Shown one piece after another: positions 54,701 through 55,257 of a stretch of DNA of 56,095 nt (position 1 is the stretch's first letter; each line of letters begins with the position of its first letter). Position numbers and translations under genes: made by a program. The notes beneath the pieces were generated by a model, which was not told the DNA's origin, ran no database searches, and saw nothing but the letters and a program-made list of their open reading frames with translations. This DNA is from an uncultured Candidatus Saccharibacteria bacterium (GTDB taxonomy: Bacteria; Patescibacteriota; Saccharimonadia; Saccharimonadales; Saccharimonadaceae): NCBI GenBank assembly GCA_946638615.1, contig CAMPBO010000004.1:1-56095 (forward strand), written 5' to 3'.

Positions 54701-54980
54701 TAATTCGCCAAAATATCGTTCATATACAGTCGAAAAGGCACATATTTTATTCGTGACGCCAGACAAAGATGGTGAAGTTTACGATAAAGTTTACGAGTTT
54801 AGTGTCGATGACGAAAAGAACTTAATTCAGCTGATGCAGGCAGTTTATAGTTTGGTTTCGACCCTTACGTTTATGAATGATGAGGAAATTTTTATACCAT
54901 CAGATAAAACACTTGGTATAAAAGATATTAAGCACTTCATTGAGCTCGTGCTTGCAAAAGGTGGCTCTAGTATACTATAA
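51738..54980 (+). CDS. UvrD/Rep superfamily helicase fused to PD-(D/E)XK nuclease (AddA-like)
   Basis: Walker A GPGTGKTQLLSHKVAY, MLDEFQDTNPSQF, VGDDDQAIYEFQGA, LSAHKAKGLEFSYVF, LYVALTRAKETLY; C-term GKIDHISIDEAKKTIEIYDFKTGGY nuclease motif. Confidence 0.92.
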   Translation: MGLNQKQKEAVEYLDGPLLVLAGPGTGKTQLLSHKVAYILKNTDTNPENILCLTFTETGASNMRERLKSIVGNDGLRVNIGTYHAFGSEILAQYKNYSENYERKLDSAVDEVTQFKIIKELQEKLPGNDILKGDNIKDIVSVISSAKSAGLNATDLKNIAEQNLEDSKILSEVISPLLKSVIPRVYKESYENAYLPIWEILKQYTKAGTIIKNIERSIGGLARDLKEAIISAESTEKIKPLSDWKDKYFEKDNNGNYRLKDRIANKKLLSLATIMRKYDNYLHKNGLYDFDDMIQESARILREDDGFRATLTERYQFIMLDEFQDTNPSQFAIIKELTDYEKPLIMAVGDDDQAIYEFQGALSTNLIDFQNHYSANVIPLVENYRSTQEILDFSREIINQANDRFADKELLSHKEAPKESQIYRHEFLSSEMEYDFVASKIAELIKSGVKQSEIAIISYKTKYFMPLLPFLKAHPEIKIAYEKKDDLFEDEKIHEILTLARFIYELTYEKKSTVSTLEILAYPFFKLPMLEIVKAVGEARSSRKQIFEILLHSENPEILKVMEFFSSLVAKAFNEPLELFLDYLIGAMELNGYRSPYLEYYTKTEGYQAFSLYESLSSLRGKLRKHFGEKKLRLADLISLIDDYKDAEMPLNLVSPYKESDEAVQILSAHKAKGLEFSYVFIISTDHVAWGKGKGNNNLLALPKNLTQIRHTGTTDGEKLRILYVALTRAKETLYITNSLHDFNEKSPARLEYLEEYQEGEKVISPLIPTKTVQTHYEGSASQYSENNLKKWFLPYVQATPDMRAIYKERASNWRMSASSLTSFVDIVYAGPQDFFKNYILQAPPMPEDKSLAYGDLVHKVFEVVTNHRISDTEALDFFLSELDKKDLPVETIRELREQGTENITTALKAFGEILRNGKAEVDFGPEKLNISGVPITGKIDHISIDEAKKTIEIYDFKTGGYHKEKWQSHTTLYKYMLQLEFYKLLLNNSPKYRSYTVEKAHILFVTPDKDGEVYDKVYEFSVDDEKNLIQLMQAVYSLVSTLTFMNDEEIFIPSDKTLGIKDIKHFIELVLAKGGSSIL

Positions 54981-54981
54981 T
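54952..54981 (+). promoter_or_regulatory. Promoter for 55036 gene, within the 3' end of the helicase gene
   Basis: TTGCAA-18 nt-TATAAT. Confidence 0.6.
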
Positions 54982-55035
54982 ACTAGCACAGAATCATATT
55001 ATGTGATTTAGTATTTTAGAAAGGTGGTGAGATGA

Positions 55036-55215
55036 GTGACCTGGAGTTGTCCTAAATGCGGTAAGCCGTTTTTGACGGAGCAAGACCGCGACAGGCATGT
55101 CGCAGAATGCGGTCTTGGCTATAAAGCCAAAAAATGCTACCACTGCGAAGGCACTGGCCGCGATGTGTATGGGCGAAAATGCACCTATTGTAACGGAAGC
55201 GGCAAACTACCCTAA
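55036..55215 (+). CDS. 59-aa zinc-ribbon + DnaJ-type CxxCxGxG protein; missed by ORF track
   Basis: GTG start with SD aaaggtggtga; (M)TWSCPKCGKPFLTEQDRDRHVAECGLGYKAKKCYHCEGTGRDVYGRKCTYCNGSGKLP*. Confidence 0.8.
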   Translation: MTWSCPKCGKPFLTEQDRDRHVAECGLGYKAKKCYHCEGTGRDVYGRKCTYCNGSGKLP

Positions 55216-55226
55216 CACCCCCTATT

Positions 55227-55257
55227 GGCAAGATCTAGTTTCAAACTAGGTCTTGCC
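55227..55257 (+). terminator. Long intrinsic terminator after 55036 gene
   Basis: GGCAAGATCTAGT-ttcaa-ACTAGGTCTTGCC then ATTTTTA. Confidence 0.85.

Follow-up and report, generated by a model that had tools for sequence, protein, structure and literature searches.

C2HC-type zinc fingers and CxxCxGxG modules are both known for partner binding. Classical C2H2/C2HC and UBZ fingers (PF00096, PF13894, PF18439) share the C-x2-C-x12-H-x3-C arrangement and the hairpin-helix, and CxxCxGxG repeats occur four times in the central domain (PF00684) of DnaJ (type I Hsp40). In anti-TRAP (RtpA; PF15777 / NF058604) two such motifs form a small, free-standing protein, whose oligomers and function need zinc and whose CxxCxGxG part shares homology with DnaJ (PMC2896485). 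The small C(P)XCG proteins of Haloferax volcanii (PMC11241148) and Brz of Halobacterium (PMC2253796) are, as far as the extracts of these papers go, proteins of less than ~70 aa with CPxCG/zinc-finger motifs, and Brz is described in its extract as encoded beside a neighbouring gene that it regulates (PMC2253796). Zinc is not bound by every CPxCG protein (PMC11241148).

We analysed a stretch of 56,095 nucleotides (the window), which is contig C4 of a 0.54-Mb Saccharibacteria genome that is 71% complete. Between a helicase gene and rpmG it holds a small gene with the following features:

51738..54980, + strand: UvrD/Rep-type helicase with a C-terminal PD-(D/E)XK nuclease domain (Pfam UvrD-helicase 1.3e-62, UvrD_C 5.1e-26, PDDEXK_1 3.8e-15)
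54952..54981, + strand: sigma-70-like promoter TTGCAA-18-TATAAT, within the end of the helicase gene and overlapping the helicase stop codon
54992..55008, + strand: hairpin that may form close to the transcript's 5' end, AATCATATTATGTGATT (-4.8 kcal/mol, z -1.5)
55019..55035, + strand: leader GAAAGGTGGTGAGATGA, which carries a strong SD and a decoy-like AUG and adjoins the GTG start
55036..55215, + strand: 59-aa putative zinc protein of class A (defined below), GTG start, MTWSCPKCGKPFLTEQDRDRHVAECGLGYKAKKCYHCEGTGRDVYGRKCTYCNGSGKLP, supported by conservation and selection
55048..55110, + strand: C-x2-C-x12-H-x3-C finger, residues 5-25 (AlphaFold helix at 15-24; weak zf_UBZ/C2HC matches)
55135..55203, + strand: two CxxCxGxG motifs, residues 34-56, the anti-TRAP-like half of a DnaJ zinc domain (weak PF00684 and PF15777 matches)
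55226..55258, + strand: intrinsic terminator, 15-bp stem with a T tail
55280..55501, + strand: rpmG (ribosomal protein L33, zinc-free form; Pfam Ribosomal_L33 1.8e-19)

The first-pass annotation had proposed a free-standing GTG-start protein missed by the ORF caller, with its own promoter, a near-ideal SD and a long terminator, and each of these elements was recovered at the positions given above. A 60-aa length cut-off would skip an ORF of this size. In a scan for strong SDs among window ORFs up to 290 aa it was the clearest unlisted small gene, and its SD was among the strongest ahead of small ORFs in the whole window. The window contained a single match to the leader and the shuffles none; likewise, the full double motif of the translation (the finger followed by two CxxCxGxG motifs) occurred once and was absent from 200 triplet-shuffled windows. 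Compared with its closest homologues the ORF showed a dN of 0.12-0.20 with saturated dS, and within class A the median dN/dS was 0.24, not near 1, which together with the conservation across Saccharibacteria, named earlier as a check, supports a real protein. C5, C8, H21, C34, C37, C49, C52 and several glycines were invariant over 30 class A and B homologues; C25 was invariant solely within class A, where all putative metal ligands are invariant. Close homologues were confined to the same genus when the proteins of 199 family genomes were searched, and three further Saccharibacteria MAGs contain a homologue with 78-83% identity. The named relatives of the small gene are metagenome-assembled genomes, and many of the relatives' genomes are in tens of contigs. 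Judged by these sequence comparisons, the ORF is coding and under purifying selection. A chance ORF or a non-coding transcript, for which the length of 59 aa and the lack of an annotated family could be brought forward, can practically be dismissed, given the absence of the motif from shuffles, the dN/dS well below 1 and the ligands invariant in 30 homologues. We found no RNA family at the cassette site, and just two tRNAs across the window. The AUG in the leader, four bases upstream of the start, may be a decoy start; a second peptide from this AUG was rejected, its frame being 7-75 codons long and unconserved. A conserved 5' hairpin was likewise discarded, as it showed a weak trend only (mean z -0.50, standard error 0.14, over 68 sites).

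The AlphaFold monomer (mean pLDDT 83, pTM 0.59) places a helix at residues 15-24, and the spacing of the first module together with its predicted hairpin and helix marks it as a classical bba C2HC finger. Of the two zinc modules proposed earlier, the CxxCxGxG repeats stood, while the reading of the first as a zinc ribbon was abandoned, since paired CPxCG-type knuckles on beta hairpins are lacking. The protein scored above the cut-off of no known family. Unlike the classical C2H2/C2HC and UBZ fingers, which it resembles in spacing and predicted fold, it stays below the Pfam cut-offs and has a lone bacterial finger joined to a CxxCxGxG module. It shares its size and motif type with the Haloferax proteins and Brz; these are archaeal, however, and the extracts of both papers do not mention an exchangeable slot (PMC11241148, PMC2253796). 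Like anti-TRAP, it is small and free-standing with two CxxCxGxG motifs, and its C-terminal part superposed on anti-TRAP (2bx9, 3ld0 and 3lcz) with an rmsd of 1.0-1.2 A over 27-28 columns in Foldseek, at E-values of 0.14-0.5 that are not significant. Unlike anti-TRAP, it has an extra N-terminal C2HC finger, and its scores were far short of the curated cut-offs, at 15.2 versus 32 bits with PF15777 and 17 versus 65 bits with NF058604. A role as an anti-TRAP-like antagonist of an RNA-binding regulator, to which this superposition would point, seems very improbable, as the alignment spans the zinc part only, a different finger makes up the N-terminal half, and a gene for TRAP (PF02081) was not found in the 71% complete genome.

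Across genera, the small gene has the helicase gene as a conserved neighbour on its upstream side. With rpmG as anchor, present in 158 of 174 genus genomes, 118 loci were read upstream of rpmG. Where the helicase lay upstream, the interval measured 269-606 bp and held a small ORF at all sites but one (L063); one small ORF was present at 79 of the 80 distinct genus sites. The exception, in genome G208, has a 28-bp interval in which the helicase gene almost abuts the rpmG promoter, like an 'empty' slot. A tie of the small gene to rpmG was rejected, because small genes track the helicase in other genera; without an upstream helicase, mostly no such gene was found at rpmG, which has its own promoter (55253-55281 in the window). 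Judging from relatives, the true start of L33 in the window would be at 55292.

The ORFs at these sites were assigned to five classes by regular expressions, with eight sites assigned by hand:

class A: C2HC finger and two CxxCxGxG motifs, including the protein of the window
class B: diverged first finger and CxxCxGxG
class C: 37-56 aa, C2HC finger and basic N-terminal tail, without CxxCxGxG
class D: 51-71 aa, predicted strand-strand-helix-strand-helix, without a zinc motif
class E: 77-78 aa

Classes A, B and C are mutually homologous. Classes D and E gave no match to A, B or C at E <= 1e-3 and no meaningful family in Pfam, PHROGs or PADLOC, and the confident model of the class D fold had no significant match in the PDB. 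The surrounding expression signals recur across unrelated classes. A sigma-70-like match was found upstream at 73 of 78 sites (18/18 A, 12/12 B, 26/28 C, 15/18 D and 2/2 E), a terminator was present at 17/18 A, 7/12 B, 25/28 C, 16/18 D and 2/2 E sites, and the leader GAAAGG[GT]GGTGARATGA-[GT]TG is common to unrelated ORFs. Its ATGA abuts the start at 12/18 A, 6/12 B, 8/18 D and 2/2 E sites and at none of the 28 C sites. At two sites (L048 in G175, class B, and L054 in G328, class A) the leader upstream of the zinc ORF is ~250 nt long and seems to carry another small ORF, which follows its own SD and includes a transmembrane-like stretch, i.e. a two-gene cassette.

On a tree of the helicase C-terminus (80 sites, ~125 residues, many forks unresolved) we counted 35 class changes, against a minimum of 5 and a shuffled mean of 44; as the resolution of this tree is limited, pairwise comparisons are the strongest evidence for exchange. 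In the pairs L034 (D)/L042 (A), L069 (B)/L005 (C) and L100 (B)/L071 (D) the coding flanks are ~80-93% identical and the units between them unrelated. The first of these pairs contains a ~330-bp island at 33-38% identity (chance level) within flanks at 84-96%, the helicase end and rpmG being 84-97% identical, and the last is identical up to the -10 box, splits a few bases on and matches again at the terminator and the rpmG promoter. In close pairs the break starts right past the -10 box and stops at the terminator or the rpmG promoter, indicating that the exchanged unit is the transcript. Close relatives thus have unrelated ORFs between near-identical flanks, that is, an exchangeable cassette at a fixed site, and the use of one promoter position for quite different small proteins in close relatives gives it the look of a plug-in slot.

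We consider it somewhat better than an even bet that the 59-aa product is a small zinc adaptor protein and one allele of an exchangeable single-gene cassette behind the UvrD/PD-(D/E)XK helicase gene. The product would be a basic protein that, going by its ligands, probably binds two zinc ions, one in the bba C2HC finger and one in the anti-TRAP/DnaJ-like CxxCxGxG module. The positions of promoter, leader and terminator are kept, whereas the transcribed unit gives way to small ORFs that are homologous (B, C) or unrelated (D, E); most simply, this would happen through recombination in the conserved flanking genes. Since both modules are known as partner binders, a non-enzymatic adaptor is favoured, in which finger and CxxCxGxG module would dock on protein or nucleic acid.

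The CxxCxGxG motifs could also be taken for a DnaJ zinc module that works in trans as a mini-chaperone or as a thiol-redox factor and stands in for the zinc domain lost from the DnaJ of the genus. This idea is attractive because the DnaJ of the window genome has 300 aa without any CxxCxGxG, as in the sampled genus members, whereas those of other genera have ~360-390 aa and match the CxxCxGxG profile. The co-occurrence does not fit, however: members with a C, D or E cassette lack a CxxCxGxG protein at the site and have the same short DnaJ (e.g. G062), and the genus of G121 combines a zinc DnaJ with a small CxxCxGxG protein encoded after the helicase. In addition, the 59-aa protein has two repeats, not the four of DnaJ, and no J domain, and in the PF00684 check that had been suggested it fell short, with 15.5 bits against a cut-off of 32.7. 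We therefore regard this explanation as improbable. The genus DnaJ loci (L249:412-1314, + strand, on contig C10 of G000; L250; L237-L248) encode ~300 aa, with no CxxCxGxG in the twelve loci checked, of which two are fragments.

Small cysteine proteins behind the helicase were also found in other genera (G120, G121, G068, G128, G082, G083, G189 and G171), and in several genomes genes are inserted between the two (an IS30-like gene in G094, a gene for 1895 aa in G109, and further cases in G165, G159 and G177). The genes dinB and polA-like are often next neighbours in other genera, and outside the family the profile of the small protein matches mainly DnaJ. The persistent company of the helicase, often close to dinB or polA, and the occurrence of UBZ-like C2HC fingers in eukaryotic repair proteins would agree with a dedicated accessory of the adjoining helicase or of DNA repair, with the zinc protein tuning the helicase by binding either the enzyme or its DNA substrate. 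We think this unlikely, as the helicase is conserved and yet its neighbour is swapped for unrelated folds and missing at L063, and the small gene is equipped with a promoter and a terminator of its own.

A further suggestion of the first-pass annotation, a link to the loss of core zinc sites, was not supported. L33 and RpoC of the window lack zinc ligands, and in G193 (L204:4078-4863) a relative of the small protein is divergent from a gene for a FUR-family regulator, behind which lie znuA/ABC/znuB-like genes for zinc uptake, as might be expected of a zinc reservoir or zinc-status protein. Nevertheless, the placement beside FUR was seen in a single genome, the zinc ligands of RpoC are lost in 12 of 12 genomes, whichever cassette they carry, and in many relatives the slot is filled by unrelated, cysteine-poor proteins without zinc motifs, which makes such a function quite improbable. 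Compensation for zinc lost from RNA polymerase was rejected on the same ground, as it is the zinc-1 ligands of RpoC that are missing whatever the cassette. The 12 genomes belong to three genera, and their RpoC (window 32321-36193; L224-L235) lacks the N-terminal zinc-site cysteines (CERIFGPTKDINPHDSKLKGVRSREAAVDKEGN...). In G193, TTTGCAAA..ATT(T/C)GCAAA repeats lie between the small-protein relative and the FUR-family regulator.

Returning to the adaptor cassette, its rapid replacement would reflect conflict or lineage-specific selection, e.g. by phage or other mobile DNA. The fast swap of unrelated folds behind one promoter fits this better than it fits a constant housekeeping function. In tiny epibionts with genomes as small as those of Saccharibacteria, repeated replacement of one small gene by unrelated ones at a fixed site suggests strong, changing selection. 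We put forward, tentatively, that the family keeps an expression slot behind the helicase-nuclease gene in which small genes of unrelated fold are swapped in an arms race with phage, mobile DNA or the host bacterium, with the zinc class as fast-turning adaptors. The small protein had no match in phage records and one weak partial match in plasmids, and among the small proteins no meaningful match to the PADLOC anti-phage defence profiles was found, so that it is the exchange pattern that argues for conflict. A phage or plasmid origin was rejected, as there was no phage match and the lone viral-contig match shares just the CxxCxGxG stretch. The helicase matches GajB models in PADLOC, as expected for the UvrD superfamily. 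Our literature searches on small or hypervariable proteins of Saccharibacteria brought up nothing on the cassette site. The slot offers a ready list of small proteins for testing against phages, mobile DNA and host bacteria, and the cassette exemplifies genes that are often lost to length cut-offs in gene calling. Two other ORFs of the window fall under the usual length cut-offs as well, a glutaredoxin-like small ORF at 24854-25051 (MIKVYTTPTCAYCHA...) and one for a basic small protein at 25103-25261 (MPEPKKQSSPRK...).
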